A stretch of DNA of 64,000 nt from Daucus carota subsp. sativus. Its lineage: Eukaryota > Streptophyta > Magnoliopsida > Apiales > Apiaceae. The notes under the pieces were generated by a model. It did no database searches. It was not told the origin of the DNA and worked only from the letters and a program-made list of their open reading frames with translations. Below are positions 14,253 through 58,332 of the stretch, one piece after another. The stretch is from contig NC_030381.2 of NCBI RefSeq assembly GCF_001625215.2, positions 51,855,214-51,919,213 on the forward strand, in the 5' to 3' direction. Position numbers and translations under genes: made by a program. How positions within the stretch are numbered: position 1 is the first letter of the stretch; each line of letters starts with the position of its first letter.

Positions 14253-14396
14253 TGGAACACTCCTTACTTTAACTTTTTATATATTAAAAGCACCAACATA
14301 TTGGCGATTATTTCACACATTCCATATCAGCCACACCAGATAGTTGATGTTGGCAATTGGAAATTATTTAGTACATGATGATAATCAGATTCATGT

Positions 14397-15486
14397 TTAG
14401 CAGTTAACTGGGGCAATGACAGCACCAACGACAGTAAGGCCAGTCTTCCAGGTGGTTCCATCACATCCATTCATCGAGAACTTGACAGTATTCTCACAGC
14501 CGCAGGCGCCTGTGTTGCAGAATTCACCAACCTTAAGTCCCACCAATGCATTCGTTGGCTTGGTCTTCAAATCTTCCTTGTGCTCTTCAGTAGTGCCGTT
14601 GGGACGAGTAAGCTTAAGGGTCACTGGACCATTCATGCAAAGATTGTCGCTAAGCTCCACAGCAAGATACACTGCGTATTTCACTCCCTTGGTGAGGTTG
14701 TTGGCATTGTACTTTCCGTCAATTTGTAGCCAGCATACTGTGATCAGTTCAGCAACCTCCATAGGCTGGCAGCTGTGTGTACAAAAGTCCGAAAAACCAA
14801 ATATTATGTAAAAATTATCTCAAATCTTTGGTCTCGAAAAATGGAAGTCAATGGGATGTTTGGGTTAGCTGAAAAGAAGTGACTTTTTACTTAAATTAAA
14901 GAAGTGGAGTAGAAGTGAGAAGTAAATAAGTTAATAAAGAGTTTGGAAAAGAGGTAGAAGCTGTGAGAGAAAATCTAGTATCCTCAGCTTCTTAAAAGTG
15001 CTTCTACTTATTTACACAAACAGCTCAAGAAAAGCATAAGCCAACACCAACTTCTGTCCGGTCATTAAATTTGTAGTACAAAAACACCAAAAGCTTTCCA
15101 ACATGTGCTATACATACCTGATTGGGTATGTCTTAGAAACCCATTTCCAGTAGCGGCTGTCTGAACCCCAAACTATTGAGAGTTCCTTTGCACTGATCAC
15201 CGCAGCGAAGGACTGGACCAATTAATCAACATTAACGGAGATATATATATCGTACAAAATTATATGACTAATTAGACTATAATTAAGAACAAGTCACACG
15301 CAGGCAGGTGTGTGCATGGTGCATAACAATAATACTATTGCAGAATTATAATTTCATTAATTACCTAAATAAAAAAAGAAGTGAAAATTAAAAACCAAAA
15401 TAACTTACACTCTTGTCTTTCGCAGCCTGGACACCTTGAGTCCACAATGACACGATGTCATCACGCACACGCTGCACTTGAGCCAT
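14397..15486 (-). CDS. PP2-type phloem lectin, copy A
   Basis: Phloem protein 2-like lectin, a soluble sieve-element/companion-cell protein family that binds chitin-type or high-mannose glycans and is part of P-protein. Exons (- strand): 15409-15486, 15118-15212, 14397-14772; they join in frame to 182 residues with GT-AG introns of 196 and 345 bp. PP2 motifs: SAKELSIVWG (33-42) with YWKW (47-50), VAELITVCWLQIDGKY (64-79), GPVTLKLTRPNG, VGLKVGEF, and the C-terminal KFSMNGCDGTTWKTGL. There is no F-box or signal peptide, so it belongs to the short PP2-A type. Eight Cys, including the last residue. A TATA box (TATAAATA, 15564-15571) lies about 80 bp before the ATG. Virtually identical to copy F. 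Confidence 0.9.
14853..15055. mobile_element. hAT-type MITE in intron 2 of PP2 copy A
   Basis: Insertion beginning GGGATGTTTGGGTTAGC, placed between TCAAT and GTCCRGTCATT, which are almost adjacent in copies lacking it (E, G). Interior rich in AGAAGT/ACTTCT inverted segments. The right terminus (expected GCCAAAC..CCC) is worn. It enlarges intron 2; the same insertion is at 39578-39780 (copy F) and, with a nested insert, at 18503-18936 (copy B). Confidence 0.6.
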
Positions 15487-15563
15487 CCTCCTTGCTAGTT
15501 GAGAATAAGAAGTTCTTATGTAATTCTTGTGCTGTCGATGCCAATCCTCACTTCCTTGAGCTC

Positions 15564-15571
15564 TATTTATA
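15564..15571 (-). promoter_or_regulatory. TATA box of PP2 copy A
   Basis: GCTATAAATAGAG on the - strand, 78-85 bp upstream of the start codon. Equivalent boxes: B 19460-19467, E 36623-36630, F 40289-40296, G 43691-43698, H 45853-45860, I 48142-48149, J 55162-55169, K 57436-57443. Copy D has a changed box (28730-28737). Confidence 0.75.
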
Positions 15572-16063
15572 GCATTTCCGACGGTCCTATTTGTCCACTG
15601 ATTGATAGTTACACTTAACCTTATCTACGGTAGTAGGATGCTCTGTCCCGTTATTCTTTCTTTTTATAAAATAAGTGGAGCTTGGATAAGAGATTCATCA
15701 ATTATTTATGCCAATTGTGCGGTACAAGCCTCACTGGAATCTGGTGAATTTCGGTTTTGATTGAAATACTCATATAACGACGAAAGCGTGGAAGCATCCG
15801 ACTACGAGAAAAGAATTACAGTGACAGGACTACTTCTGTCAGAGCAGGACATTACTCAACTCGATTAACTCTGAAATTTAATATTGGCACACATGAACCA
15901 AACCACAAAAAACTGAGCTTCTCATGAATCATTAAACCAGAATATTTAGGAAACTGAACTAGAAAATTCGTCACAAGATCTGCCTGTATAAATAAACTTA
16001 TAATTACTTTTAAGGCTGTTAAATTTCATAATATATGTTTGTGAAAAAATATTTGAAATCCAG

Positions 16064-16685
16064 ACAACCGACTACCATAGGCTGTTTCTAACCTGGTAAC
16101 CTTTTTGCCCAGATACCGACCAAATTAAGTTATTTCTAAGTAAACACATAATTTAAGAAATGAACCTCACATTTCCGACCGCTAGTGTATGAAATCGGTC
16201 GGTAATGACTTGACGGTCGGAAATGAATTTAGTTTGTCGGTTTTTAAACAGAGAATCCCCAAATGATCCTGCAATACCTTCTGACTGACTCATTTCCGAC
16301 CAACTAAAATATTGGTCACTTTTATAATAGGGGCTCCCCAATTGAACCTTGAATTTCGTTCTGACCAAATCATTTCCGACCAACGTTATTGGTTGGTTTT
16401 AAAACAGGGCCCCGAATGAACCCTAAAATTTATTTCTGGCCGCCTCTAGTTGGTTTTAGGTCTATTCAAGTGTATGCCAGGTTCTAAGAAAATTTTAAAA
16501 CATTACCGACTAAAGATAGCGGTCGGTTGTCGATCGGTTATAAATATCATTTCCGATCTTTTATTTACAACCAGGTTTCAAAGGACCAACACAATCGGTC
16601 GGTCGGTGGTCGGTTACGAGGTGAAAACCGACCAACTCTCTTTATTTCCGGTCGGCGGTCGGAAATGCCCGCTTTTCTTGTAGTG
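16064..16685. mobile_element. CACTA-type remnant, copy 1
   Basis: Non-coding segment with many CCGACC/GGTCGG repeats in both orientations. On its right it ends in CTTTTCTTGTAGTG, the inverse of the CACTACAAGAAAAG terminus typical of plant CACTA elements. The left terminus is not recognisable, so the left limit is approximate. Copies at 29241-29864, 37131-37781 and 40789-41410 occupy the same place in other units, so it was inserted before the units duplicated. Confidence 0.6.
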
Positions 16686-17433
16686 ATAGCAATTTCTATC
16701 GGAACACAATATCTTACACCTTTAAGTCATAAATCACTGTTTTAAACTTTCCAAACAGCTTCCAAGTGTCATATTAAGCTTATCTGATGGCCCTTGTACT
16801 CGAAACAGTATAAACCATATACAAACGAACACCACCAGAGCAAGGGTGTAGCCAAAAAGCTCAGAAATTGCGTTAAAAACTTTTTAACATCTTTGTACGA
16901 GGGAGTAACTAAACAAAAGGTGATTAAAGCACTCTGCTTAAAGTGTCAACAAAACTAAGTTCGTGTTCACTTGAATGAAATAAAATGAAATGAAAAATTG
17001 TTTGTAAATTTAATGGAAAATGAACAAGTTACGAGCAGTGTTACGAAAATTGGACCTAATCAGTTAACCTACCCATTTAGGATTATGAGCAATCCGTGAT
17101 TAATCGGAAGGATTAATTGGAGTGAAAACCAGATATATTTTAATATTAAATAACATTTAATATTTTGTTATTATTGTATTAGTTATTTATTAACAAATAT
17201 ATATTTAGTATATCATAAATTCTACAGTTGTTCATATTTAAAGTAATATAATAGTTAATTTTAATAAATTTTATATATAATTTGATTAAGAAAAATTTAT
17301 AAGGATTAATCAGATTTTAAAAATCATATCGGTCGCCTACCTTGGGGGATTGATCGTTAAATCAAGGGATTTTTAGAACAATGGATACGAGGCAATAGTG
17401 ACTAAACACGGATGAGCCTAAATTTAGTGTACT

Positions 17434-18042: not shown

Positions 18043-19382
18043 TTAGCAGTTAACTGGGGCAATGACAGCACCAACGACAGTAAGGCCCGTCTTCCAGGTG
18101 GTTCCATCACATCCATTCATCGAGAACTTGACATCAGTATTCTCACAGCCACAGGCGCCTGTGTTGCAGAATTCACCAACCTTAAGTCCCACCAAAGTAT
18201 TCGTTGGCTTTGTCTTCAAATCTTCCTTGTGCTCTTCAGTAGTGCCGTTGGGACGAGTAAGCTTAAGGGTCACTGGTCCATTCATGCAAAGATTGTCGCT
18301 AAGCTCCACAGCAAGATACACTGCGTATTTCACTCCCTTGGTGAGGTTGTTGGCATTGTACTTTCCGTCAATTTGTAGCCAGCATACTGTGATCAGTTCA
18401 GCAACGTCCATAGGCTGGCAGCTGTGTGTACAAAAGTCCGAAAAACCAAATATTATGTAAAAATTTATCTCAAATCTTTGGTCTCGAAAAATGGAAGTCA
18501 ATGGGCTGTTTGGGTTAGCTGAAAAGAAGGGACTTTTTACTTAAATTAAAAAAGGGGAGTAGAAGTGAGAAGTAAATAAGTTAATAAAGAGTTTGGAAAA
18601 GAAGTAGAAGTTGTGAGAGAAAATCTAGTGTGCCTGTTTGTTTAGCAGAAGCAGGGGCTTCTGCTTCTGACTTCTGCTTCTTGACCCGTTTGTGTAAAGA
18701 AGTAGAAGCACTTTTAAGAAGCTGAGAATGCTAGCTTCTCTCTCACAGCTTCTACTTTTTTTCCAAACACTTTATTCACTTATTTACTTCTCACTTCTAA
18801 TTCACTTCTTTATTTTAAACAAAGAAGCACTTCTTTTAAGCTTAGCCAAACGGCCCCAGTATCTTCAGTTTCTTAAAAGTGCTTTTACTTATTTACACAA
18901 ACAGCTCAAGAAAAGCAGAAGCCAGAAGCAACTTCTGTCTCGTCATTAAATTTGTAGTACAAAAACACCAAAAGCTTTCCAACATGTGCTATACATACCT
19001 GATTGGGTATGTCTTAGAAACCCATTTCCAGTAGCGGCTGTCTGAACCCCAAACTATTGAGAGTTCCTTTGCACTGATAACCGCAGCGAAGGACTGGACC
19101 AATTAATCAACATTAACGGAGATATTTCCGAATCAAAATATATCGTACAAAATTTATATGACTAATTAGACTATAATTAAGAACAAGTCACACGCAGGCA
19201 TACTGGTGTGGGCATGGTGCATGACACTAATACTATTGCAGAATTATAATTTCATAATTACCTAAATAAAAAAATAGTGAAAATTAACAACCAAAATAAC
19301 TTACACTCTTGTCTTTCGCAGCCTGGACACCTTGAGTCCACAATGACACGATGTCATCACGCACACGCTGCACTTGAGCCAT
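18043..19382 (-). CDS. PP2-type phloem lectin, copy B
   Basis: Exons 19305-19382, 18999-19093 and 18043-18421 join to 183 residues. It differs from copy A by one extra residue (ENTDVKFS for ENTVKFS), by PMDVAEL in place of PMEVAEL, and by NTLVGL for NALVGL. Exon 1 carries the longer N-terminus MAQVQRVRDD shared with A and F. Intron 2 is 577 bp, the longest in the array, because a second MITE sits inside the first one. TATA box at 19460-19467. The coding frame is uninterrupted and all splice borders are canonical. Confidence 0.88.
18503..18936. mobile_element. hAT-type MITE with nested MITE, intron 2 of copy B
   Basis: The same insertion as at 14853-15055, beginning GGGCTGTTTGGGTTAGC, but split at about 18629 by a further ~230-bp element (18629-18857) that begins TGTGCCTGTTTGTTTAGC and ends TAGCCAAACGGCCCC. 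The inner element is a near-perfect foldback rich in AGAAGCAG/CTTCTGCTTC. Copy A shows the unsplit site (CTAGTATC). Confidence 0.6.
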
Positions 19383-21082: not shown

Positions 21083-21098
21083 TTTCGTAATATATGTT

Positions 21099-21768: not shown

Positions 21769-22207
21769 AATATATAGTTGCCCATAAGGAGACTGATGAA
21801 AAAGGAGTGGTACATTTAGGTCCAAGATTTATATTCTTGATTGCTAGAAATAATTCGGATGCTATTTTATTTTTAATGAGTTAAGGTGGTGACCGATAAA
21901 ATTTAAATTCAAATACTTTGGGACGTGGAATAGTACTTTTTTTTTTTTTTATTAAAAGTTAATCCTTATTAAATCATCAAATGTTAGACAATAGTGTCTC
22001 CGACAAGCATAATGGAGGAGACGAAATAACAATGAAGCTACTAAGCTTATAAGAATTTTAGCCATCTAATTATCTGCTGCCTTATTTGAAGGATTTCTAA
22101 CATATCTGGGAGTCACTTTCTATAATATATTCAGCTATTAGTTCAGCAACCTCCAGAGCCTGGGAGCTGTGTGTACAAAAGTCCCAAAAACCAAATATTA
22201 TGTAAAA

Positions 22208-23467
22208 CTAGTTGAGAAGCCGCGTTGCGGCGGCCTATAAAAATTATATTAATGGCTCAATATTAATATTTGTAAAATAAAATAATTTTGTGTTTGTCTA
22301 TAAAAAGTATATTAATGTTTCAAAATTAATATTTGTAGGATAAAATAAATTTTATATTATAAAAATCTTGATGTAATACCAATACTAATAGATAAAATTG
22401 CAAAATTGGACTATAATTCATGATGAAAAAATGAAAATAAATTTATACACGTAATTAACAATTTAAAACACGGCGAATATTAATTTTATTTGTGTTTTTT
22501 TAAAAGTAATCATGTTCTTACATTGTCACTTTACTCCAATTTTTTTGGATTGATTGTGCACAAACACGTCTAACTTAAATCTGTGAGATAGCGGTGTATA
22601 ACTACCCTTGCTTGTAACAAACTTTAAATTTTAATACTGTATAAACAGTCTTACTTAAAAGTTGCTTGAATAGAGCAAACAGATAATGCATGAATAATTT
22701 TTTTTCAATGTATACAAAATAAATCATATAAAAATTAACAACATATTCGAAGAACAAAAACAAACGTTATAAAATAATAACCAACAAACATACATCACTA
22801 ACAGTTAATTTATTGATATCATCCATCAATATCATGTCAAGACTATATTCTTTTCCCGTGTTTTGATTTGTCGACTCCAACATAGCGGTCTATAACTACC
22901 TTTGCTTACAACAACCTTTATTTTTTTAATACTGTATAAACAGCCTTCACTTATCGTTGCTGAAGAACGGCACTACCGAGTTAGAAATCGAGCAAGAGAA
23001 TTATCACCAAAGAGAGGTAAGGTTGTGGTATTGAGAGAAAGAATGTTGTGTTTAGATGATCTAAAACCCTACAATCTATAGGGGATTTATAGGTGCAGAG
23101 AGACCTGTGTGCTACTCTTTTCCATAATTAAATAATATGAAACAAAATCAGATTAAAACTTTCAAGCTACTGTATTCCATAAATAATCTGAAACAAAATT
23201 AGATTCTGAAACTTGCTTCCAATATACCCGAAACTACTAATCTGAAACAAAATCAGATTAAAACTTTCAAGCTACTATATTCCATAAATAATCTGAAACA
23301 AAATCAGATTCTGAAACTTGCTTCTAATATACCCAAAACTAAAAAAGGTAGTTCTAGTTTTTGATATTTTTCATCCAAAAATTCCAGAAAATTAGAAAAA
23401 TAGAACGGAGCGATGTGAGAGACGCCACCTACACGCCCCTCGCTTCTCCTTTATATAAGTATATTGA
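22208..23467 (-). mobile_element. Non-autonomous Helitron (1260 bp)
   Basis: Read on the - strand it begins TCAATATACTTATATAAAGG and ends GCCGCCGCAACGCGGC-TTCTCAA-CTAG: a 5'-TC, a 5-bp-stem hairpin 7 bp before the 3'-CTAG, and insertion exactly between host A and T without target duplication. These are the defining Helitron features. The empty site is visible in the other PP2 introns (TATTATGTAAAA / TTTATCTCAAATC). No Rep/helicase coding. Inside are a ~104-bp tandem pair (23134-23341) and a dispersed ~85-bp repeat (22585-22665 and 22881-22960). Confidence 0.88.
23134..23341. repeat. Two-copy ~104-bp tandem repeat inside the Helitron
   Basis: Units of about 104 bp, each carrying TGAAACAAAATCAGATTAAA, TTCAAGCTACT.TATTCCAT and GATTCTGAAACTTGCTTC. 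They differ at a handful of bases. Confidence 0.75.
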
Positions 23468-23672
23468 TTTATCTCAAATCTTTGGTCTCGATAAATGGAA
23501 TTCAATGTCCAGTCATTAAATTCCAACATGTGCTATATATACAGACCTGATTGGGTATTTCTTAGAAACCCATTTCCAGTCATAACCGCAGCGCACCTTA
23601 CGCTCTTGTCTTTCACAGCCTGGACACCTTGAGTCCACAATGATAAGATGTCATCACGCTACACTTGAGCCA

Positions 23673-24690
23673 TCTTCTTGCTAGTTGGGAATAAGAAGTT
23701 CTTGTGCAATTCTTGTGCTGTCGATGCCAATACTCACTTCCTTGAGCTGTATTTATAGGGTTTCGGACGGTCCTATTTGTCCACTTATTGATAGGTACAC
23801 TTATCCTTATCTGCATGTGGTAGGAGGATGCTCTGTCTCATTATTCTTTCTTGTTATTAAATAAGTGGAGCTTGGACATTACTCAACTCGATCAACTCTG
23901 AAATTTGATATTGGCACAGATGAACAACCACGAAACATTGAGCTTCTCAGTAATTGTTGAACCAGAATTTTCTGGAAACTGAACTAGAAAATTCGCCACA
24001 AGATCTTCCTGTATAAATAAACTTATAATTACTTTCAAGTTTCAAGGCTGCTAATTAAATTTCATAATATATGTTTGTGAATAAATTATATTGAATTAGT
24101 AGCCAAGGAGAAGTTTAATTGATCATGGGGTGAAATGGGGTCTGGGTACATCCACTAATTTCAAATAACGGCTACAATGAGCCTACAACTTTAGACAAGA
24201 CTACAATGGAAGAATGAAATCTGTTACAAACGGAATTGCATGTGTCATTTTTCACGGATTTGGTACTTTTTTTTTGAGAAATTCACGGATTTAGTACTTG
24301 AAATCCGTCAAAAAAGAAGGATGTATAGTAGCGCAGCCGCAGAACTATTCATGCAACTACAATTAGAGAACACCGATTCTACAAGTCTATCACTCTTCTC
24401 GATTACTAGGTATATAGAGTTGTGTAGTTAACATAACTGCTGTATGAAATTTAACACCCTCCCTTGATCGGGTCGAAAAGAATTCCGTGCAAGATAAATT
24501 TTAAAAAAGGCGATATAATTCTAACGTCATTGAAAATACTTTTGCAGACACTCATTAGAGGAAATTAAATTTCAACGGTTTTTGGGTACTTGTAGTAGAA
24601 TTAGATGTACAGTACATGTTTTCTCGTAAGAATTTGTCCTGCAAACAGTCCCTTTTCACCGTTATTTCTATATGGTTTATTAACAAGTGA
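23673..24690. other. 5' flank of pseudogene C and unassigned spacer
   Basis: Retains the PP2 upstream sequence including a TATA-like GTATTTATAGG (23751-23761) and the stretch at 23870-24140, which matches the upstream of copy G. At 24180-24310 it parallels 44400-44490 (GAATGAAATCTGTYACAAA..GGAATTGCAT). From 24310 on nothing is recognised. Confidence 0.55.
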
Positions 24691-26827: not shown

Positions 26828-26849
26828 TGAAATTTTTAGAAAATATAAA

Positions 26850-32030: not shown

Positions 32031-32452
32031 GAGGGGTGTATTGGATTGGGATTTTAAAGATTTTTTTGCATTCATGAAATCCGAGGGTATTCGATTGGGA
32101 TTGTTTGAAATCCATTAAAATCTTGAGGTATTCAATTGGGATTTTAAATTATGCTTTAAAATCCGATGGTATTCAATTGGGATTGTTTAAAATCCATTAA
32201 AATCTGATGGTATTCAAATGCTGATGGATTTTTTTTCATTTCATAAAATGATGGATTTTGTGGCATTCTTCAGTGTATTTTAAGTTTTTTGAAATCCCAC
32301 CAAATTCAATGGGATTTTGAAGCATTGTACCTAAATCCTATCAACTCTGCGACATTTCATCAAGAATCCGCACAAAATCAAAATCTCATACAATCCATTA
32401 AAATCCATAGACTAAAAACAATGCATTAAAATCCCAATCGAATACACCCCCG
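32031..32452. mobile_element. Tourist/PIF-Harbinger-type MITE (422 bp), nested
   Basis: Inverted ends GAGGGGTGTATTGGATTGGG and CGGGGGTGTATTCGATTGGG (the latter on the opposite strand), flanked by TAA on both sides (32028-32030 and 32453-32455). Interior repeats of ATTCAATTGGGATT and AAATCCATTAAAATC. It sits inside the CACTA-type element. Confidence 0.85.
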
Positions 32453-45773: not shown

Positions 45774-45860
45774 CTTCCTTGCAAGTAGAGAGACTAGAAA
45801 GTCCTTGTGTAATTCTTGTGCTGTTGATGCCAATTTTATTTTCCTTGAGCTGTATTTATA

Positions 45861-47060
45861 GCAAACAAGTAGTAACTTTTGCACCACAATTTACCCACTA
45901 GAAAATTCTCAAGATCTGGCAGTATTAATTAATTAATTAACTTGTATTTACTGTCCAGGCTGTAGAGTTTCACAGGATGTATTTGTGAAGAATTGAAGTA
46001 GCCTCCTAACTGGGCGGTGTCCATAAAATCGGTGCACGATAAACTTAAAGTCGCAATATATATCACAGTAAATTTCACTTAAGTTCTTTAGGTACAACCG
46101 TTGTAAATTCATCTGCTATATATGATCACTACACAAATTGAATGTCAGAGTCTTTATGGGTACTACAGATAATAATGGAATTTGATGCAGTACTGAACAT
46201 GATAATGAATTTGCCCTTCTCTACCAGTTCTTTGTTAATCTAGGTCGGAAACAGATTTACAGTGGAAATACACTGATGAAAAAGGAGAGGTATACACTAC
46301 AACAAATTAGGCCATTTACGACGGACAGTGCGTCGTAAGATAAAATTTATCCAGAGATCTGGGCCCACAACATACTTGCGACGGAAAATTCCATCGTAAA
46401 TTCTTCAACTTACGACAGTTTTGGTATTTACGACGTATGTTGGGAATTGTGACGTATTTTGCAACTTTTGACTTGAGCAAAAACGACGGAAAAAGTCCGT
46501 CGTAAAGTAGGAACTTACGACAGACTTGCGCCTTAACTTCCGTCGTAAAAACCCTATTTTGTTGTAGTGTTTATATATCGCCCAAGATATATTTTCTTCT
46601 TGATTGCTAGATATAATTTCGATGCTATTTTATTTTTAATAAGTTAAGGTGGTGACTGATAAATCCAATTAACAAAATATTTTGGGTCCAGTTCTTGTAT
46701 GTGTATTGAGTGATAGATCTAGCGATTAGGTTTTGCTATTTGATATTAATAATGGTTGAGATATCTGAAATAAAACAAATTTTATTGTTGTATTGTTTAT
46801 TATTTGCACCCAGTGAAACCTAATCTGCAGTCAATTAATATTTTTAGATGGGTTCAACGGAGTAGATAGAATTAGAATCTAGAATTTAGGAATTGTCGGT
46901 CATTCATAACTTAGTGAAATTTAGTATTTTCAATCATATTTAGTCGGTCATTGGCTTAATATCATCATGATTTCGATCTTCGGACATTAAAGATCTAATT
47001 TGTATAGTTTAGGATGTCATGCATGTCTCTAGCTAGGTTAGACGATAAATTAACTTTAAC
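45861..47060. other. Spacer between PP2 copies H and I
   Basis: Type-2 upstream region, shared with I and J: TTAATTAATTAATTAACTTG, GGGCGGTGTCCATAAAATCGG, then the CACTA-like MITE (46295-46569), then TTGATTGCTAGATATAATTTCGATGC and AT-rich sequence to the next unit. Confidence 0.65.
46295..46569. mobile_element. CACTA-like MITE with GACGG/CCGTC repeats, copy 2
   Basis: 275 bp, CACTACAACAAATTAGGCC to TTTTGTTGTAGTG, with TTTACGACGG / CCGTCGTAAA inverted repeats inside. The pseudogene-C flank (about 21800-21830) shows the corresponding site without the element. Confidence 0.7.
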
Positions 47061-47183
47061 TTTTTATATATTAAGATACCAACATATTGGCAATTATTTC
47101 ACACATTCCATATTAGCCAAACCAGATAGGTGATGTTGGCGAATTGGAAATTATTTAGTACATGATGATGGTCAGATGCATGT

Positions 47184-48062
47184 TTAGCAGATAACTGGGG
47201 CAATGACAGCACCAATGACAGTAAGGCCAGTCTTCCAGGTGGTTCCATCACATCCATTCATCGAGAACTTGACAGTATTCTCACAGCCACAGGCGGCTGT
47301 GTCGCAGAATTCACCAACCCTAAGTCCCACCAAAGTATTCTTTGGCATGGTCTCCAAATATTCCTTGTGCTCTTCAGTAGTGCCGTTGGGACAAGTCAGC
47401 TTAAGGGTCACTGGACCGTTCATGCAGAGATTGTCGCTAAGCTCCACAACAAAATACACTCCGTAATTCACTCCCTTGATGAGGTTGATGGCACTGTACT
47501 TTCCGTCGATTTCTAGCCAGCATACTTCAATTAGTTCAGCAACCTCCAGAGCCTCGCAGCTGTGTGTACAAAAGTCCAAAATACCAAATATTATGTACAA
47601 TTTATCTCAATCGATCTTTGGTCTCGGTAAAATGCAAGTCAATGTCCAGTCATTAAATTCCAACATGTGCTATACATACCTGATCATTGGGTAGGTCTTA
47701 AAAACCCATTTCCAGTAGCGGCTGTCTGAACCCCAAACGATTGAGAGTTCCTTTGCAGTGATAACCGCAGCGCAGGACTGGACCATTTAATTAACATTAA
47801 CGGAGATATTTCCCAATCAAAATATATCATACAAAATTTATATGGCTAATTAGACTATAAGAACAAGCCACACGCGGGCATACTATAGTCTATATGCATG
47901 GTGCATGACAATAATACTATTGCAGAATTAAAATTTCATTAGCTTAATTATATAAAAAAGTACCGAATATTAACAACGAATATAACTTACACTCTTGTCT
48001 TTCACAGCCTGGACACCTTGAGTCCACAATGACACGATGTCATCTCGCTTCACTTGAGCCAT
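47184..48062 (-). CDS. PP2-type phloem lectin, copy I
   Basis: Exons 47991-48062, 47680-47777 and 47184-47559 join to 181 residues. Exon 2 is three bases longer than in the other units (TYPMIS instead of TYPIS), the extra triplet lying just before the donor. EALEVAELIEVCWLEIDGKYSAINLIKGVNYGVYFVVEL is continuous with the PP2 core; end APVIC. TATA box 48142-48149. Same sequence as copy J at an offset of 7,020. Confidence 0.88.
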
Positions 48063-48149
48063 CTTCCTTGCAAGTAAAGAGACTAAGAAATCCTTGTGTA
48101 ATTCTTGTGCTGTTGATGCCAATTCTATTTTCCTTGAGCTGTATTTATA

Positions 48150-49377
48150 GCAAATAAGTAGTCACTTTTGTACCAGAATTTACCCACTAGAAAATTCTCA
48201 AGATCTGGCAGTATTAATTAATTAATTAACTTGTATTTACTGTCCAGGCTGTAGAGAGTTTCACAGGATGTATTTGTGAAGAATTGAAGTAGCTAGCTAG
48301 CCTCCTAACTGGGCGGTGTCCATAAAATCGGTGCACGATAAACTTAAAGTCGCTATATATATCACAGTAAATTTCCCTTAAGTTCTTTAGGTACAACCGT
48401 TGTAAATTCATCTGCTATATATGATCACTACACAAATTGAATGTCAGAGTCTTTATGGGTACTACTGATAATAATGGAATTTGATGCAGTACTGAACATG
48501 ATAATGAATTTGCCCTTCTCTACCAGTTCTTTGTTAATCTAGGTCGGAAACAGATTTACAGTGGAAATACACTGATGAAAAAGGAGAGGTATACACTACA
48601 ACAAACTAGGCCATTTACGACGGACAGTGTGTCGTAAGATAAAATTTATCCAGAGATCTGGGCCCACAACATACTTGCGACGGAAAATTCCGTCGTAAAC
48701 TCTTCAACTTACGACGGTTTTGGTACTTACGACGTATGTTGGGAATTGTGACGTATTTTGCAACTTTTGACTTGAGAAAAACGACGGAAAAAGTCCGTCG
48801 TAAAGTAGGAACTTACGACAGACTTGCGCCTTAACTTCCGTCGTAAAAACCCTATTTTGTTGTAGTGTTTATATATCGCCCAAGATATATTTTCTTCTTG
48901 ATTGCTAGATATAATTTCGATGCTATTTTATTTTTAATAAGTTAAGGTGGTGACTGATAAATCCAATTAACAAAATATTTTGGGTCCAGTTCTTGTATGT
49001 GTATTGAGTGATAGATCTAGCGATTAGGTTTTGCTATTTGATATTAATAATGGTTGAGATATCTGAAATAAAACAAATTTTATTGTTGTATTGTTTATTA
49101 TTTGCACCCAGTGAAACCTAATATGCAGTCAATTAATATTTTTAGATGGGTTCAACGGAGTAGATAGAATTAGAATCTAGAATTTAGGAATTGTCGGTCA
49201 TTCATAACTTAGTGAAATTTAGTATTTTCAATCATATTTAGTCGGTCATTGGCTTAATATCATCATGATTTCGATCTTCGGACATTAAAGATCTAATTTG
49301 TATAGTTTAGGATGTCATGCATGTCTCTAGCTAGGTTAGACGATAAATTAACTTTAACTTTTTATATATTAAGATAC
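48150..49377. other. Spacer upstream of PP2 copy I
   Basis: Type-2 upstream region with the CACTA-like MITE (48594-48867), running to TTAAGATAC at 49377, where the Copia element begins. Counterpart of 55170-56396. Confidence 0.7.
48594..48867. mobile_element. CACTA-like MITE, copy 3
   Basis: Counterpart of 46295-46569, shared by duplication rather than by a new insertion (same position in the unit). Confidence 0.7.
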
Positions 49378-49662
49378 TGTTGGTTTTATTTAATCTAAAC
49401 ATGATATTTTAAATAAAATTGTAGCTGTTGGAGCTATATTCTAGTGATAGAGACAGTAGCTTAGTAGTAGGAAATAGATAAAGATATTAGAATTGAGATA
49501 GAAGTTGGGAACTGATAGTAGAGTTGTGTTAGGAGTTTAATTTCTCTAGCTTGTACTGCACTATATATTTTCACGTCTGCTGCTTGAATTAATAAGAAGT
49601 TTTCTTTGCTTATTTCCATTTCTTATATCAGCTGTGTGTGTAAATCGTGAGTAGATTCTATA
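49378..49662 (+). repeat. 5' LTR of the Copia element
   Basis: Begins TGTTGGTTTTATTTAATC and ends GTAGATTCTATA; contains a TATATATTTTC-like promoter region near 49563. Confidence 0.9.
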
Positions 49663-49699
49663 CGTGGTATCAGAGCTTGAGTTTTCAATCAGTGCACCC

Positions 49700-52600
49700 A
49701 TGGAAGCAAACAAGTCAAAAGAGAATGGGATCGGGCTGAGCTACCCAATGCTGACCAAAACCAATTATGCTGCGTGGGCTCAGAAGATGATGGTGTTCAT
49801 GCAGGCACACGGCGTGTGGGACGCCATTGAACCCAAGGACCCGAAAACAGTAGTTGATGACAAGATGGACAAGCGCGCATTGGCTGTGATTTACCAGGGA
49901 ATTCCGGAGGATCTGCTCCTGGCACTCGCTGACAAGAAGACATCGAAGGAAGCTTGGAATGCTGTGAAAACAATGAGTCTGGGAGCTGATAAGGTGAAGA
50001 AGGCGAAGGCCCAGACTTTGAAAGGTGAATTTGAAAACTTGAGTATGAAAGATAGTGATCAGCTGGACGATTTTTACCTGAAGCTGCATGGTCTGGTTTC
50101 AAATATCAGAGCACTAGGGGAAAAAATGGAAGAAAGTTATGTAGTGAAGAAGCTTCTCAGGGCAGTTCCCTCGAAATTTCTCCAAATTGCGTCCGCTATT
50201 GAGCAGTTTGGAAAGTTGGAGGAGATGTCTGTAGAAGAGGTCGTTGGTTCTTTGAAGGCTCACGAGGAACGCATGCGTGGGTCAAGCGAAACAAACCAGG
50301 GGCACCTCTTGCTGACAGAGGAGGAGTGGAGGAAAAGAGACAGCAGTGAGGGACATCTGTTGTTAACTCGTGAAGAGTGGATGAAGAAAAACAGCGAAGG
50401 AACTCGTAACATTAACGAGAACCGGGGAAGAGAAGCAAATCGAGGAGGACGCGATAGAAGCAAACTGAGATGTTTTAATTGTCAAGGACTTGGACATTTT
50501 GCATACGAATGTCGCAAGCCTCGACGGGGAAGAGAGGTCCAAAAAGAAGTGAATCTCTCTCAAATTCAGGGAGACGAACCAGCATTGCTGATTGCTGAGG
50601 TTGACAAGGTTGAAAGAAAGAACATGATGTTACTGAATGAAGAGATGGTGGCTCCAAAATTAACAGACAAGGCCGAGGGACACAGAGACTCATTAATCTG
50701 GTATTTGGACAATGGTGCGAGCAATCACATGACTGGACAACGGGGAAAGTTTAAGGAGTTGGATGAGAGTGTAACTGGAAAAGTCAAGTTCGGTGATGGA
50801 TCCACGGTGAATATCAAAGGCAAGGGAGTGGTGGCATTTAAGTGCAAGAATGGGGAGGAGAAAATGCTAAATGAGGTATACTACATTCCTACTTTATGTA
50901 ACAATATCATATCTTTGGGTCAACTCTCAGAAGCGGGTAATAAAGTTATATTGGAAGGGGACTATCTGTGGGTGTATGAGGAGCAAGGTCGATTATTGAT
51001 GAAGGTGAAAAGAACTGAGAACCGTCTTTATAAGATAAGTCTCGAGGAGAGCAGTCAAATGTGTTTCTTTTCAAAAAATGAGGAAGATACGTGGATGTGG
51101 CACACAAGACTTGGACATGTAAATTTTCAAGCTCTGGAACTCATGTCAAGGGAAGGAATGGCACACGGAATTCCAAGAATGGTCCAACCGAAAGAAAAAT
51201 GCGAAGGATGTTTGATGACAAAGCTGGCTAGGACCTCTTTCCCATCTCATACGAGTTTTGAGACAACGACCCCCCTTGAACTTGTGTATGCAGACATATG
51301 TGGCCCTATCATGCCTGAGACTCCCGGAGGTAATCGTTATTTTTTATTATTCGTGGATGATTATAGCAGGAAAATGTGGGTATACTTGCTAAAAGAGAAA
51401 AGTGATGCATTTGGTATGTTCAAAAAATATAAGGCAGTGGTCGAAAAAGGTACAGGGAAAAGCATAAAGATGTTGAGAACGGATCGGGGGGGTGAGTTTT
51501 GTTCAAAAGAATTCACATCCTATTGTGAAGAAATGGGTATCGAGAGACAATACACTGCTCCGTATACTCCGCAGCAAAACGGGGAGGTCGAGAGGAGGAA
51601 TAGAACAGTAGCAGCGATGACCAGAAGTTTCTTGAGAGAATCAAAGTTGCCATCGTATATGTGGGGGGAGGCAGTAAGGCATTCCGTATACGTGCTAAAC
51701 CGTTTGCCAACAAGAGCTTTGAATGGAACAACCCCATATGAAGCTTGGGGAGGCAGGAAACCAAACCTGAAACACATCAGGTTGTTTGGCTGTATAGCTA
51801 TCATGAAGGTCCCATCTGTGCATGTAAGTAAGCTGGACGATAGAGGAAGAAGAGTTGTGTACCTTGGGCGAGAACCGGGAACGAAGGGCTGCAGACTATA
51901 TGATCCGGTTACAAAGAAACTACAAGTGAGTCGAGATGTGGTATTTCGAGAGAAAGAACATTGGTCGTGGGAGAAGAATGAACAAGACGTGAACATTCCT
52001 GGATTGATCACAATGATTGAAGATAATTCTGAGAAAGACAGTAGTACTGAGACTGGGGAAACTTGCTCAACCCCTGTGCGTATGATAGAAAACAGAGGCG
52101 CTGACATGTCTGTAGAGAGGTCTGCTGCAACACCTGCGAGTAAACCTCGGAAATACAGGGGATTAGACGAGTTGTATAGTGAGACTGAAGTCATAGAAAT
52201 GTTGGATGAACTTATGTTGTTAAAGGTCGAGGAACCAATGAACTATCAAGAAGCTAGCATGAAGAAGGAATGGAAGGACGCCATGAACATGGAGATGGAA
52301 ACTATCGAAAAGAATAACACCTGGGTGCTTATGGATCTTCCACCTGGGCACAAACCTATAGGACTAAAGTGGGTATTTAAATTGAAGAAGGATTCGGAAG
52401 GCAACGTGGTGAAGCACAAGGCTCGACTTGTCGCGAAGGGTTATGTGCAGCGAAAGGGAATTGACTACAACGAAGTGTTTGCACCTGTGGCTCGACTTGA
52501 AACAATACGTTTGTTGCTGGCATTATCTGCAAAAGAAGGTTGGGAGGTGCACCACTTGGACGTAAAATCAGCATTTCTAAATGGAGAACTACTTGAAGAA

Positions 52601-53767
52601 GTGTATGTTATGCAACCAGAGGGATTCGAGAAAAAGGGAGAGGAACGAAAGGTGTATAGGTTATTGAAGGCACTTTACGGGTTACGTCAAGCACCGAGGG
52701 CCTGGAACGCAAGGTTGGACAAATGCTTGAGAGACTTGGGATTTAGGAAGTGCCAACATGAGCAGGCTGTTTATACAAAGTGCCAGAATGGGAATGTTGT
52801 GATCATAGGTGTGTATGTAGACGACCTTTTGGTTGCAGGATCGGATCAAGAGGAGATCGAGTTATTTAAGAAGAAAATGAACGAGCAGTTTGAAATGAAT
52901 AATCTGGGTCTACTGTCATATTATCTTGGAATCGAAGTTCATCAAGGAAAAGCATGCACAACACTGAAACAGTCTGCTTATGCTAAAAAAATCTTAGAAA
53001 ATGCGGGAATGTGGAAGTGTAACTTAACCAGGAGTCCAATGGATCAGAAATTACAGTTAGATAAAGATGAAGACGGACAACCAGTGAATTCGACTGAGTA
53101 CAGGAGTGTTGTTGGCAGCCTGAGATATTTAACTCACACGCGACCGGATATAACATTTGCAGTTGGGGTTGTTAGTAGATTCATGGAGAGACCCACTGTC
53201 AAACATCAACAAGCAGTAAAGCAAATTCTGAGGTATGTAAAGGGTACTGTGAACCACGGGTTGGCATATGCAAGGAATGGAACCAAGAAAGTTATAACCG
53301 GTTACACAGACAGTGATCTAGCAGGTGACGTGGTTGATCGGCGCAGTACGGGCGGCATGTGTTTTTACTTGAATGGGAGCTTGATCTCATGGGCTTCACA
53401 AAAACAGAGGGTCATTGCACTTTCTTCATGCGAAGCGGAGTACATGGCTGCAACTACAGCAGCCTGTCAGAGTATTTGGCTTCGTGGGCTGCTGGGAGAG
53501 ATTTCTGGGCAACAAGTAGGAGCAGTGGTGTTGTGTATTGATAATAAATCTGCGATTGAGCTGATGAAGAACCCTGTGCTGCACGGAAGGAGTAAGCACA
53601 TAGATGTTCGTTTTCACTTCATTCGTGAGTGCATCGAGCGAGGAGAACTAGTGATTAAATATGTGGGCACGCAGGAGCAGAGGGCAGACATTTTAACTAA
53701 GGCACTGGGAAGAGTTAAGTTTGAAGAGATGAAGGCGTTGATTGGGGTTGAAAATCTTGCTGAATAA
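49700..53767 (+). CDS. Copia gag-pol polyprotein
   Basis: 1355-codon reading frame from the first ATG after the primer-binding site. Parts in order: gag domain (about 49730-50280), zinc knuckle (about 50470-50515), aspartic protease (about 50690-50900), integrase with its zinc-binding head (about 51070-51800), reverse transcriptase (about 52320-53050), RNase H (about 53290-53720). Integrase before reverse transcriptase places it in Ty1/Copia. One long frame without a gag/pol boundary is usual for plant Copia elements. Confidence 0.93.
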   Translation: MEANKSKENGIGLSYPMLTKTNYAAWAQKMMVFMQAHGVWDAIEPKDPKTVVDDKMDKRALAVIYQGIPEDLLLALADKKTSKEAWNAVKTMSLGADKVKKAKAQTLKGEFENLSMKDSDQLDDFYLKLHGLVSNIRALGEKMEESYVVKKLLRAVPSKFLQIASAIEQFGKLEEMSVEEVVGSLKAHEERMRGSSETNQGHLLLTEEEWRKRDSSEGHLLLTREEWMKKNSEGTRNINENRGREANRGGRDRSKLRCFNCQGLGHFAYECRKPRRGREVQKEVNLSQIQGDEPALLIAEVDKVERKNMMLLNEEMVAPKLTDKAEGHRDSLIWYLDNGASNHMTGQRGKFKELDESVTGKVKFGDGSTVNIKGKGVVAFKCKNGEEKMLNEVYYIPTLCNNIISLGQLSEAGNKVILEGDYLWVYEEQGRLLMKVKRTENRLYKISLEESSQMCFFSKNEEDTWMWHTRLGHVNFQALELMSREGMAHGIPRMVQPKEKCEGCLMTKLARTSFPSHTSFETTTPLELVYADICGPIMPETPGGNRYFLLFVDDYSRKMWVYLLKEKSDAFGMFKKYKAVVEKGTGKSIKMLRTDRGGEFCSKEFTSYCEEMGIERQYTAPYTPQQNGEVERRNRTVAAMTRSFLRESKLPSYMWGEAVRHSVYVLNRLPTRALNGTTPYEAWGGRKPNLKHIRLFGCIAIMKVPSVHVSKLDDRGRRVVYLGREPGTKGCRLYDPVTKKLQVSRDVVFREKEHWSWEKNEQDVNIPGLITMIEDNSEKDSSTETGETCSTPVRMIENRGADMSVERSAATPASKPRKYRGLDELYSETEVIEMLDELMLLKVEEPMNYQEASMKKEWKDAMNMEMETIEKNNTWVLMDLPPGHKPIGLKWVFKLKKDSEGNVVKHKARLVAKGYVQRKGIDYNEVFAPVARLETIRLLLALSAKEGWEVHHLDVKSAFLNGELLEEVYVMQPEGFEKKGEERKVYRLLKALYGLRQAPRAWNARLDKCLRDLGFRKCQHEQAVYTKCQNGNVVIIGVYVDDLLVAGSDQEEIELFKKKMNEQFEMNNLGLLSYYLGIEVHQGKACTTLKQSAYAKKILENAGMWKCNLTRSPMDQKLQLDKDEDGQPVNSTEYRSVVGSLRYLTHTRPDITFAVGVVSRFMERPTVKHQQAVKQILRYVKGTVNHGLAYARNGTKKVITGYTDSDLAGDVVDRRSTGGMCFYLNGSLISWASQKQRVIALSSCEAEYMAATTAACQSIWLRGLLGEISGQQVGAVVLCIDNKSAIELMKNPVLHGRSKHIDVRFHFIRECIERGELVIKYVGTQEQRADILTKALGRVKFEEMKALIGVENLAE

Positions 53768-53816
53768 AAGTCTGAGCGTATAGCAGCAGATAACATGTTT
53801 AGATTAGGAGGGAATG

Positions 53817-54101
53817 TGTTGGTTTTATTTAATCTAAACATGATATTTTAAATAAAATTGTAGCTGTTGGAGCTATATTCTAGTGATAGAGACAGTAGCT
53901 TAGTAGTAGGAAATAGATAAAGATATTAGAATTGAGATAGAAGTTGGGAACTGATAGTAGAGTTGTGTTAGGAGTTTAATTTCTCTAGCTTGTACTGCAC
54001 TATATATTTTCACGTCTGCTGCTTGAATTAATAAGAAGTTTTCTTTGCTTATTTCCATTTCTTATATCAGCTGTGTGTGTAAATCGTGAGTAGATTCTAT
54101 A
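53817..54101 (+). repeat. 3' LTR of the Copia element
   Basis: Same 285-bp sequence as the 5' LTR; followed directly by ACATATTGGCAATT of PP2 unit J. Confidence 0.9.
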
Positions 54102-54203
54102 ACATATTGGCAATTATTTCACACATTCCATATTAGCCAAACCAGATAGGTGATGTTGGCGAATTGGAAATTATTTAGTACATGATGATGGTCAGATGCA
54201 TGT

Positions 54204-55082
54204 TTAGCAGATAACTGGGGCAATGACAGCACCAATGACAGTAAGGCCAGTCTTCCAGGTGGTTCCATCACATCCATTCATCGAGAACTTGACAGTATTC
54301 TCACAGCCACAGGCGGCTGTGTCGCAGAATTCACCAACCCTAAGTCCCACCAAAGTATTCTTTGGCATGGTCTCCAAATATTCCTTGTGCTCTTCAGTAG
54401 TGCCGTTGGGACAAGTCAGCTTAAGGGTCACTGGACCGTTCATGCAGAGATTGTCGCTAAGCTCCACAACAAAATACACTCCGTAATTCACTCCCTTGAT
54501 GAGGTTGATGGCACTGTACTTTCCGTCGATTTCTAGCCAGCATACTTCAATTAGTTCAGCAACCTCCAGAGCCTCGCAGCTGTGTGTACAAAAGTCCAAA
54601 ATACCAAATATTATGTACAATTTATCTCAATCGATCTTTGGTCTCGGTAAAATGCAAGTCAATGTCCAGTCATTAAATTCCAACATGTGCTATACATACC
54701 TGATCATTGGGTAGGTCTTAAAAACCCATTTCCAGTAGCGGCTGTCTGAACCCCAAACGATTGAGAGTTCCTTTGCAGTGATAACCGCAGCGCAGGACTG
54801 GACCATTTAATTAACATTAACGGAGATATTTCCCAATCAAAATATATCATACAAAATTTATATGGCTAATTAGACTATAAGAACAAGCCACACGCGGGCA
54901 TACTATAGTCTATATGCATGGTGCATGACAATAATACTATTGCAGAATTAAAATTTCATTAGCTTAATTATATAAAAAAGTACCGAATATTAACAACGAA
55001 TATAACTTACACTCTTGTCTTTCACAGCCTGGACACCTTGAGTCCACAATGACACGATGTCATCTCGCTTCACTTGAGCCAT
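54204..55082 (-). CDS. PP2-type phloem lectin, copy J
   Basis: Exons 55011-55082, 54700-54797 and 54204-54579 join to 181 residues, the same protein as copy I. Gene, introns and proximal promoter show no difference from I that I could find. TATA box 55162-55169. Its 3' flank is cut short at 54102 by the Copia element, roughly 100 bp beyond the stop codon. Confidence 0.88.
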
Positions 55083-55169
55083 CTTCCTTGCAAGTAAAGA
55101 GACTAAGAAATCCTTGTGTAATTCTTGTGCTGTTGATGCCAATTCTATTTTCCTTGAGCTGTATTTATA

Positions 55170-56396
55170 GCAAATAAGTAGTCACTTTTGTACCAGAATT
55201 TACCCACTAGAAAATTCTCAAGATCTGGCAGTATTAATTAATTAATTAACTTGTATTTACTGTCCAGGCTGTAGAGAGTTTCACAGGATGTATTTGTGAA
55301 GAATTGAAGTAGCTAGCTAGCCTCCTAACTGGGCGGTGTCCATAAAATCGGTGCACGATAAACTTAAAGTCGCTATATATATCACAGTAAATTTCCCTTA
55401 AGTTCTTTAGGTACAACCGTTGTAAATTCATCTGCTATATATGATCACTACACAAATTGAATGTCAGAGTCTTTATGGGTACTACTGATAATAATGGAAT
55501 TTGATGCAGTACTGAACATGATAATGAATTTGCCCTTCTCTACCAGTTCTTTGTTAATCTAGGTCGGAAACAGATTTACAGTGGAAATACACTGATGAAA
55601 AAGGAGAGGTATACACTACAACAAACTAGGCCATTTACGACGGACAGTGCGTCGTAAGATAAAATTTATCCAGAGATCTGGGCCCACAACATACTTGCGA
55701 CGGAAAATTCCGTCGTAAACTCTTCAACTTACGACGGTTTTGGTACTTACGACGTATGTTGGGAATTGTGACGTATTTTGCAACTTTTGACTTGAGCAAA
55801 AACGACGGAAAAAGTCCGTCGTAAAGTAGGAACTTACGACAGACTTGCGCCTTAACTTCCGTCGTAAAAACCCTATTTTGTTGTAGTGTTTATATATCGC
55901 CCAAGATATATTTTCTTCTTGATTGCTAGATATAATTTCGATGCTATTTTATTTTTAATAAGTTAAGGTGGTGACTGATAAATCCAATTAACAAAATATT
56001 TTGGGTCCAGTTCTTGTATGTGTATTGAGTGATAGATCTGGCGATTAGGTTTTGCTATTTGATATTAATAATGGTTGAGATATCTGAAATAAAACAAATT
56101 TTATTGTTGTATTGTTTATTATTTGCACCCAGTGAAACCTAATCTGCAGTCAATTAATATTTTTAGATGGGTTCAACGGAGTAGATAGAATTAGAATCTA
56201 GAATTTAGGAATTGTCGGTCATTCATAACTTAGTGAAACTTAGTATTTCCAATCATATTTAGTCGGTCATTGGCTTAATATCATCATGATTTCGATCTTC
56301 GGACATTAAAGATCTAATATGTATAGTTTAGGATGTCATGCATGTCTCTAGCTAGGTTAGACGATAAATTAACTTTAACTTTTTATATATTAAGAT
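55170..56396. other. Spacer between PP2 copies J and K
   Basis: Type-2 upstream region with CACTA-like MITE (55614-55888). Differs from the I spacer at a few positions, all in the distal part. Its junction with unit K reads TTAAGATACCAACATATTGG, the unoccupied form of the Copia target. Confidence 0.7.
55614..55888. mobile_element. CACTA-like MITE, copy 4
   Basis: Counterpart of 48594-48867, offset 7,020. Confidence 0.7.
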
Positions 56397-56502
56397 ACCA
56401 ACATATTGGCAATTATTTCACACATTCCATATTAGCCAAACCAGATAGGTGATGTTGGCGAATTGGAAATTATTTAGTACATGATGATGGTCAGATGCAT
56501 GT

Positions 56503-57358
56503 TTAGCAGATAACTGGGGCAATGACAGCACCAATGACAGTAAGGCCAGTCTTCCAGGTGGTTCCATCACATCCATTCATCGAGAACTTGACAGTATTCT
56601 CACAGCCACAGGCGGCTGTGTTGCAGAATTCACCAACCCTAAGTCCCACCAAAGTATTCTTTGGCATGGTCTCCAAATATTCCTTGTGCTCTTCAGTAGT
56701 GCCGTTGGGACAAGTCAGCTTAAGGGTCACTGGACCGTTCATGCAGAGATTGTCGCTAAGCTCCACAACAAAATACACTCCGTAATTCACTCCCTTGATG
56801 AGGTTGATGGCACTGTACTTTCCGTCGATCTCTAGCCAGCATACTTTAATTAGTTGAGCAACCTCCAGAGCCTTGCAACTGTGTGTACAAAAGTCCAAAA
56901 TACCAAATATTATGTACAATTTATCTCAATCTTTGGTCTCGGTAAATGCAAGTCAATGTCCAGTTATTAAATTCCAACATGTGCTATACATACCTGATTG
57001 GGTATTTCTTAGAAACCCATTTCCAGTAGCGGCTGTCTGAACCCCAGACTATCGAGAGTTCCTTTGCAGTGATAATTGCAGCGCAGGACTATTAACGGAG
57101 ATATTTCCGAATCAAAATATATCGTACAAAATTTATATGGCTAATTAGACTATAATTAAGAACAAGTCACAGGCAGGCATACTGGTGTGTGCATGGTACA
57201 GTGCATGACACTAATACTATTGCAGAATTATAATTTCATTAGCTTATATAAAAATGTACTGAATATTAACAACCAAAATAACTTACACTCTTGTCTTTCA
57301 CAGCCTGGACACCTTGAGTCCACAACGACACGATGTCATCACGCTGCACTTGAGCCAT
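56503..57358 (-). CDS. PP2-type phloem lectin, copy K
   Basis: Exons 57287-57358, 56994-57088 and 56503-56878 join to 180 residues. Exon 3 is close to I/J (VNYGVYFVVEL, KEYLETMPKNTLVGLRVGEF, end APVIC) but reads CKALEVAQLIKVCWLEI, and exon 2 reads SCAAIITAKEL and KKYPIS. Its upstream flank is of the A-G type, so K is a hybrid of the two classes. Sequence just inside intron 1, next to the exon-2 acceptor, is shortened by about 16 bp (GGACTATTAACGG on +); the AG acceptor remains but its pyrimidine tract is poor. TATA box 57436-57443. Confidence 0.85.
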
Positions 57359-57443
57359 CTTCCTTGCTAGCTGAGAATAAGAAGTTGTTGTGTAATTCTT
57401 GTGCTGAGGATGCCAATCCTCACTTCCTTGAGCTGTATTTATA

Positions 57444-58332
57444 GCGTTTCAGACGGTCCTATTTGTCCACTTATTGATAGTTACACTTAACCTTATCTAC
57501 GGTATATAGGATGCTCTGTCCCGCTATTCTTTCTTCTTATAAAATAAGTGGAGCTTGGATAAGAGATTCATCAATTTTTATGCCAATATTTGTGCGGTAC
57601 AAGCCTCAGAGGAATCTCGTAACTTTCTGTTTTGATTGAAATACTCATATAACGACGAAAGTGTGGAAGCATCCGACTATAAAAAAAGTAATGCAGTGAC
57701 AGGAGTAGTGCTGTCAGAGCTAGGACAAACTGGAATCTCATGCCTTTTGATTGAAATGCTCAGCATCCAACTAGGGAAAAAGAATTACAGTGACAAGAGC
57801 AAAGCTCTAAGAGCTAGGACATGCATTATTAACTCCGGAATATAATATTGGTAGATTAGTCAAAACACAAACCATTGAGCTATTTAGTAATTGAAAGAAC
57901 TGAAATTTTCTTGTAAATGAACCGGAAATTTCACAATATCTAACTTAATTAACGAACTAATTCTATTTACAGTAGCTAAGGCAGTTGAATCTCACAGGAT
58001 ATGTTTTTGAGGATTTGAAGTAGCCTAGGAGAATTCAATTAATGAGTTAATTGCATTTCGCACTACTACAGTTGAGCTCAAAAACATTTTAGCATATAAA
58101 TTTTGAAAACTGCATTTCGCAACCCATTGATATTTAGCAGTGTACAAAATACCAATGGTTGGGAAATGGAATTTTCAAAAATTTGTATAAAATTAAGTAT
58201 CTCTTCAGCGTTAGTTAAGTGGTGTGTTATATATAAGAGACGTTAAAAGTATAGTTCATTTGGCGTCGGTTAACTTGACGACGGAGAAATGTTACATATG
58301 CGTCAGTGTTAAGGAATGCCAACTCTGTTGGT
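57444..58332. other. Upstream region of PP2 copy K, end of the array
   Basis: PP2-type upstream block in which a segment is duplicated imperfectly (about 57630-57727 and 57738-57835; TTTTGATTGAAAT.CTCA, AATTACAGTGACA, GAGCTAGGACA). Then decayed type-2 flank (TCACAGGATATGTTTTTGAGG at about 57990-58012) to about 58060. Beyond that nothing is recognised until the 43-bp repeat. Confidence 0.55.

Follow-up and report, generated by a model that had tools for sequence, protein, structure and literature searches.

A local array of ten short PP2-domain genes in the carrot genome with reading frames preserved by purifying selection

Layout of the array and gene models

In the 64,000-nucleotide stretch of the Daucus carota subsp. 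sativus (carrot) genome analyzed here (contig NC_030381.2, very probably chromosome 1, C1 below; positions 51,855,214 to 51,919,213; hereafter the window), ten PP2 (Nictaba-domain) genes and one damaged copy lie on the minus strand (Table 1). Searches with copy A (blastn), with its exons (tblastn), and with the Pfam PP2 model each returned the same ten copies. The gene-model search admitted only GT-AG introns and an open frame, and a three-exon model of this kind was found for all ten copies, with a uniform splice layout in the best model and GT-AG borders at each of the 20 introns. The products span 178 to 183 residues, as an initial annotation made from the letters alone had proposed along with canonical splice sites, and the copy markers that it named, the APVW end of D and the VICAKEL of G, are both present. 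Its description of ten intact genes and a wreck on a single strand holds for the frames, place, and strand, with the corrections that the stop codons of E and J are closely followed by insertions and that the ten genes encode only eight distinct proteins (A is identical to F, and I to J). The three-exon design that it assigned to eleven copies applies to ten, while wreck C retains exon 1, part of exon 2, and ~70 bp at the edge of intron 2 and exon 3. Likewise, the proposed span of 14,253 to 58,332 is correct in location but too long, since homology within the array stops near 57.7 kb.

Table 1. Array genes, shared tracts, and insertions (window coordinates)
Feature	Position	Strand	Description
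Identical tract A/F	14255-16350 = 38980-41075		2,096 bp; covers gene A/F; terminal part of a longer block
PP2 copy A	14397-15486	-	182 aa; exons 15409-15486, 15118-15212, 14397-14772
PP2 copy B	18043-19382	-	183 aa; exons 19305-19382, 18999-19093, 18043-18421
Copy C, wreck	22137-23812	-	two pieces, 23467-23812 and 22137-22209, with ~1.26 kb of other DNA between
PP2 copy D	27789-28649	-	178 aa, APVW end; exons 28578-28649, 28306-28400, 27789-28158
Insertion behind E	31215-35630		~4.4 kb, between the E stop codon and a 3' untranslated region (UTR) remnant (31076-31210); ends approximate
PP2 copy E	35641-36545	-	180 aa; exons 36474-36545, 36164-36258, 35641-36016
PP2 copy F	39122-40211	-	182 aa, identical to A; exons 40134-40211, 39843-39937, 39122-39497
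PP2 copy G	42751-43613	-	180 aa, VICAKEL; exons 43542-43613, 43248-43342, 42751-43126
PP2 copy H	44884-45773	-	179 aa; exons 45702-45773, 45447-45541, 44884-45256
Second promoter class	45682-49377		sequence upstream of H and I, matching at 99% between -500 and -110; that of J is the same
PP2 copy I	47184-48062	-	181 aa; exons 47991-48062, 47680-47777, 47184-47559
Copia-type retrotransposon (presumed)	49378-54101	+	two identical 285-bp long terminal repeats (LTRs); in the J 3' UTR, ~100 bp behind the stop
PP2 copy J	54204-55082	-	181 aa, identical to I; exons 55011-55082, 54700-54797, 54204-54579
PP2 copy K	56503-57358	-	180 aa; exons 57287-57358, 56994-57088, 56503-56878

Domain content and fold

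The PP2 membership proposed by the initial annotation is well founded. Copy A matches PF14299 at an E value of 2.2e-28 (99.5 bits against a cutoff of 25), with PP2 the only domain found by Pfam, and the main exon exceeds the Pfam PP2 cutoff in all ten copies. No F-box precedes the PP2 domain in copy A, the copy covered by the F-box scan, which has ~30 residues N-terminal of the domain; the other nine are similar in length and N terminus. The array genes are provisionally assigned to the PP2-A rather than the PP2-B type. The top solved relatives by sequence were Nictaba and the cucumber phloem lectin (E values of 1.1e-13 and 1.4e-13), followed by hinokiresinol synthase alpha (1.2e-10).

One copy of the ten, D, was modeled with AlphaFold from a sequence joining exons 2 and 3 through the in-frame intron 2 (mean predicted local distance difference test [pLDDT] score, 70.5). 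The first fold match was the cucumber phloem lectin (E value, 6.5e-13), and the top 12 PDB matches were divided among the cucumber lectin, hinokiresinol synthase (chains at ranks 3, 5, 7, and 12), and Nictaba (ranks 9 and 10). Template modeling scores (TM-scores) normalized by query length were 0.65 to 0.67 for hinokiresinol synthase, 0.62 to 0.65 for the cucumber lectin, and 0.58 to 0.59 for Nictaba. Residues 30 to 82 of the model, which cover the whole stretch encoded by intron 2, have pLDDT scores under 50, in agreement with the intron call in D. The 147-nt intron 2 of this copy is itself stop free and in frame, such that a single open frame runs from exon 2 through intron 2 into exon 3 (27789-28400, minus strand); its retention would lengthen the protein by 49 residues, in the region where the structure model has low confidence.

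Conservation of the sugar pocket

The crystallographic N-acetylglucosamine (GlcNAc) pocket of Nictaba is reported to comprise Thr14, Trp15, Tyr21, Val39, Ala40, Trp41, Asp148, Lys149, and Trp151, of which Ala40 and Asp148 contribute via the main chain (PMC12355970). Earlier modeling placed Glu138 and Glu145 in the site, and mutation is reported to have shown that tryptophans, including Trp22, matter (PMC5767604). We mapped these positions onto the array by sequence alignment to Nictaba, the number used in the paper being the chain position minus 1. The nine pocket positions map to Val, Trp, Tyr, Val, Cys, Trp, Gly, Thr, and Trp, the same in all ten copies; the aromatics Trp15, Tyr21, Trp41, and Trp151 are thereby retained throughout, as are Val39 and the Trp22 identified by mutation. 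Altogether, ten pocket-related positions are invariant across the ten copies. With 59 of 151 domain columns variable, the chance that none of nine pocket columns would vary under random scatter is 0.0098, a value that partly reflects the general conservation of such residues. These invariant positions argue against a diversified set of glycan binders and fit one specificity carried in several copies. Judged from the alignment, sugar binding by the array proteins is likely, and a shift at the pocket edge is possible.

We also mapped the highly conserved residues listed for PP2 motifs A to D (PMC6048116). In our mapping, which left the Gly of motif B unplaced, the array keeps Ile, Tyr, Trp, Leu, and Trp of motif A, Gly and Phe of motif C, and Lys, Gly, and Leu of motif D. 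The Trp of motif C is Leu in nine copies and Trp only in H, and this position is variable in the genome's other PP2 genes as well.

Exchange between copies and two promoter classes

Sequence exchange has left marks on the array. Outside the identical A/F tract, the remainder of the longer block diverges by 0.5 to 7% per 200-bp step, and the tract is the product of recent gene conversion or duplication. Between copies I and J, an identical tract extends for 1,549 bp, and their whole 2.3-kb unit differs by six substitutions and one gap. Along the genes, the nearest copy shifts segment by segment, indicating mosaic ancestry: G resembles B far upstream and across intron 1, with the first 100 bp of its 3' UTR identical to A/F, while I and J have a K-like exon 3 (98%) and are H-like from -500 to -110 (99%). 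Such changes of nearest relative, together with tracts of identity, are the expected trace of unequal crossing-over and gene conversion.

Upstream regions fall into two classes, one in A, B, D, E, F, G, and K and wreck C and the other in H, I, and J, which share an upstream region with no relation to that of the remaining seven genes. The final 110 bp before the start codon, which includes a TATA-like element, is recognizable in all ten, at 76 to 79% identity between classes in the best pairs. The TATA-like element occurs in every copy (in D, it reads TGTAAATA) and persists in wreck C. A natural promoter swap is visible in I and J, where K-like coding sequence stands behind H-type upstream sequence (45682-49377 and 54101-56398).

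The spacer at 16090-16690 is rich in TTTCCGACCG-like repeats and ends near TTTTCTTGTAGTG; related spacers begin at 29455, 37376, and 41002. These TTTCCGACCG-rich spacers were apparently duplicated together with the array units. We take the TTTTCTTGTAGTG near the spacer end to be CACTA-like.

Damaged copy and insertions

Exon 1 of wreck C contains an in-frame stop and is followed by a piece of exon 2; the ~70 bp spanning the edge of intron 2 and exon 3 lies at 22137-22209. In E, 3' UTR homology breaks ~12 nt past the stop codon, where the 4.4-kb insertion starts. The left end of this insertion begins with CACTACAAGAAAAA, presumably the start of a CACTA-like element, and no terminus matching it was seen at the right end. 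The element behind J, which we assume to be of Copia type from its open frame, has one long open frame and identical LTRs and is therefore a recent insertion. A clean target-site duplication was looked for at this element (49378-54101) and not found.

Charge and cysteine content

The array proteins differ in charge, with isoelectric points (pI) of 4.94 in I and J, 6.58 in D, and 7.4 to 8.1 in the rest (highest, 8.08). Each has 7 to 10 cysteines, and by cysteine fraction the array members hold ranks 2 to 9, 11, and 15 among 52 family rows; rank 1 belongs to another PP2 piece of the same genome, which was flagged for its makeup. PP2 is reportedly cross-linked with phloem protein 1 into filaments (PMC11081511), and a short cysteine-rich lectin would suit such cross-linking.

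Relatives in the carrot genome and flanking genes

A protein search of the genome returned at least 50 matches at E values up to 0.001. Of 67 profile matches, we placed 52 in a tree, consisting of the 10 array copies and 42 main-exon matches from elsewhere. The other 15 were short pieces of N-terminal exons, exon 2 of H among them, and the three partial matches at C1:5163277, 47880352, and 47880446; weaker matches found only by protein search were also left out. In this tree, the array copies form one side of a branch with support of 93/85, below the program's star, and copy H splits from the other nine first. Among the matches listed by the protein search, main-exon matches of at least 74% identity occur in the window only, and the closest outside it are at C1:5.036 Mb (60% identical) and C1:5.048 Mb (57% identical, with a stop within the matched stretch that is perhaps an intron). 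These two are the array's nearest kin, yet lie at a distance on the same chromosome. As far as the search shows, the array is complete within the window.

The nearest kin belong to a second PP2 cluster on this chromosome (C1:5.03-5.16 Mb), in which one row has 12 cysteines in 115 residues. More distant PP2 genes, 39 to 43% identical to the array, lie on the opposite strand at C1:51.813-51.817 Mb, ~40 kb to the left of the window. Within the window, the left flank holds ankyrin and PGG exons at 10706-13728 (plus strand), with a leucyl-tRNA synthetase gene and a GT47 piece farther left, and the right flank holds a PF02458 transferase gene (60048-61427, minus strand), which we presume to be of the BAHD type.

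Selection on the coding sequence

We asked whether the reading frames have been maintained by selection. Over the eight distinct sequences, the ratio of nonsynonymous to synonymous substitution rates (dN/dS, or omega) was 0.474, and omega = 1 was rejected (twice the log-likelihood difference [2dlnL], 18.4; p 1.8e-5). Omega was 0.461 without H (p 4.4e-4), 0.284 in A, B, E, and G (p 3e-4), and 0.478 in D, H, I, and K (p 5e-4). These fits were made with our own code, which gave the same log-likelihood as IQ-TREE (-1613.12). Gene conversion violates their single-tree assumption and may disturb the M2a model, and constraint persisted in all three subsets. Under M1a, 62% of sites had an omega of 0.13 and 38% an omega of 1. 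No positive selection was detected among the eight distinct copies, as M2a was no better than M1a (2dlnL, 1.5) and its extra class, with an omega of ~1.6, was not significant.

In a neutral simulation, rough in that it used substitutions only and one tree, a premature stop arose in a mean of 5.9 of the eight distinct copies, and 1 of 2,000 runs was stop free. Neutral evolution so simulated almost always produces stops, and the open frames are thus more than chance would leave, in keeping with purifying selection. The initial annotation had named dN/dS across the copies as a possible ground for rejecting its reading were it neutral throughout, and its proposal of selection to keep the frames is in line with the result. 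Its further suggestion that selection maintains an array of this size was overstated, given that A/F and I/J are so similar that selection cannot be read from them and that insertions lie behind the stop codons of E and J.

Comparison with known PP2 clusters and lectins

PP2 genes of the AtPP2-B type carry an F-box, unlike the short genes of the carrot array, which have the PP2 domain alone (Pfam, copy A). Ten tandem AtPP2-B genes (B1 to B10) are reported in 30 kb of Arabidopsis and seven in 55 kb of a rapeseed cluster on BnaA02 (PMC8999561); as described there, both are tandem PP2 genes similar in number and span to the carrot array. A ten-copy PP2 array is thus not unprecedented, comparable arrays being known in other plants. 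In about half of the species chosen for one study, PP2 families are reported to have grown mainly by tandem duplication (PMC10439568), while in sweet orange segmental duplication is given as the primary driver, with two tandem pairs (PMC12966013). Literature searches pairing carrot with PP2, judged mainly by title and with most subscription journals outside their coverage, turned up no account of the array. In a carrot degradome table, two "phloem protein 2-like A1-like" genes appear together with dca-miR397b (PMC10700493).

Within the Apiaceae, the celery genes AgPP2-1 and AgPP2-2 are reportedly expressed predominantly in phloem (PMC6048116); the account consulted mentions no array, and the two genes are probably relatives of the carrot array. 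The array proteins share domain and fold with the cucumber 17-kDa phloem lectin (PDB 7vs6 and related entries) and tobacco Nictaba (8ad2), at 21 to 22% identity in fold alignments. Relative to Nictaba, they keep the aromatic GlcNAc-pocket residues while four of the nine pocket residues are of another type. Hinokiresinol synthase alpha/beta (8jmq) also has the PP2 fold and is as close to the array by fold as the lectins are, with a weaker sequence match. It is described as a heterodimeric enzyme whose alpha subunit binds substrate through Met89, Lys164, Asp165, and Arg169 (PMC12141560).

Origin and possible function of the array

We consider it likely that the window holds a cluster of neighboring lectin genes of the short PP2 type (Nictaba domain, no F-box) that was copied from one founder and leveled by conversion, with frames kept by purifying selection; what the products do and how the copies are used is the part that we infer. 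Under this scenario, unequal crossing-over would have produced the array from one founder gene, and gene conversion would level the copies while purifying selection keeps their frames. The products would be small (~20 kDa), cytosolic, cysteine-rich lectins sharing one GlcNAc-oligomer specificity. They might accumulate in phloem and serve as wound or defense proteins acting by glycan binding and cross-linking. Additional copies would then add dose, with divergence falling on promoter, charge, and cysteines rather than on the sugar site.

Several observations weigh against this interpretation. An enzyme shares the PP2 fold, and the fold search does not tell it from the lectins. Only five of the nine pocket residues are as in Nictaba, the changes being Thr14 to Val, Ala40 to Cys, Asp148 to Gly, and Lys149 to Thr; Nictaba Glu138 aligns with Thr (Ile in G) and Glu145 with Gly; and a variable column (residue 67 of E; T, K, or E) stands immediately before pocket residue Val68. 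Constraint is partial, with 38% of sites fitting omega = 1 under M1a, and the identical pairs A/F and I/J are uninformative about selection on the newest copies. Finally, the frames are intact in ten copies, yet the 3' ends of E and J are altered.

The alternative that we take most seriously, which has a substantial though lesser chance of being right, is that the recent copies are by-products of unequal crossing-over in a birth-and-death process, with few of the ten expressed or needed and an array size of no functional import. Its history would be common with that of a maintained lectin array, and the near identity of A/F and I/J, the presence of wreck C, the insertions behind E and J, and the share of sites at omega = 1 are all in keeping with it. 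Such noise is harder to reconcile with the constraint that remains without H and within each of the two smaller subsets, or with the neutral simulation, in which about six of eight copies acquire stops. A more elaborate possibility, which we regard as doubtful, is that the array is a promoter-shuffling and dose-building system, in which conversion would hold one pocket while upstream regions are exchanged and charge and cysteines drift, such that one lectin specificity would be made under two transcription programs and with differing cross-linking.

The initial annotation had raised a diversified set in which different copies bind different glycans, and we now find this unlikely. The 59 variable domain columns, the T/K/E column just before Val68 and the Thr/Ile column at Glu138, the pI range from 4.94 to 8.08, and the nonsignificant M2a class would accord with it, while the ten invariant pocket-related positions and the failure of M2a to improve on M1a oppose it. 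We rejected it as the leading interpretation on these two grounds, and the variable column by the pocket keeps it among the rivals. That the genes instead encode hinokiresinol-synthase-like enzyme subunits seems quite improbable: three of the four synthase chains outrank Nictaba by fold, TM-scores do not favor the lectins, and there is a sequence match to the alpha subunit, but the lectins match better by sequence and the aromatic residues of the sugar pocket are retained. Least probable, and in our judgment very remote, is an assembly artifact in which identical copies are one DNA stretch placed twice, as identity over kilobases in A/F and I/J might suggest. The identical tracts end within longer diverged blocks, their neighbors differ, and the Copia-type element separates I from J; furthermore, the carrot DH1 v3 assembly, which this genome fits, is reported to be built from PacBio, Nanopore, and Hi-C data (PMC10581907). 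Chance or artifact was rejected on the basis of the diverged A/F block around its identical tract, the neutral simulation, and the identity-tract analysis.

For PP2 lectins in general, the array leaves existing knowledge unchanged; it illustrates a known kind of cluster well without being unexpected. It does represent a young lectin array in a crop plant in which dose and diversification are separable, as the matched pocket stays the same in copies that differ in promoter, charge, and cysteines. The array provides copy-specific markers for work on carrot phloem, and its combination of an invariant pocket with shuffled promoters merits a test.

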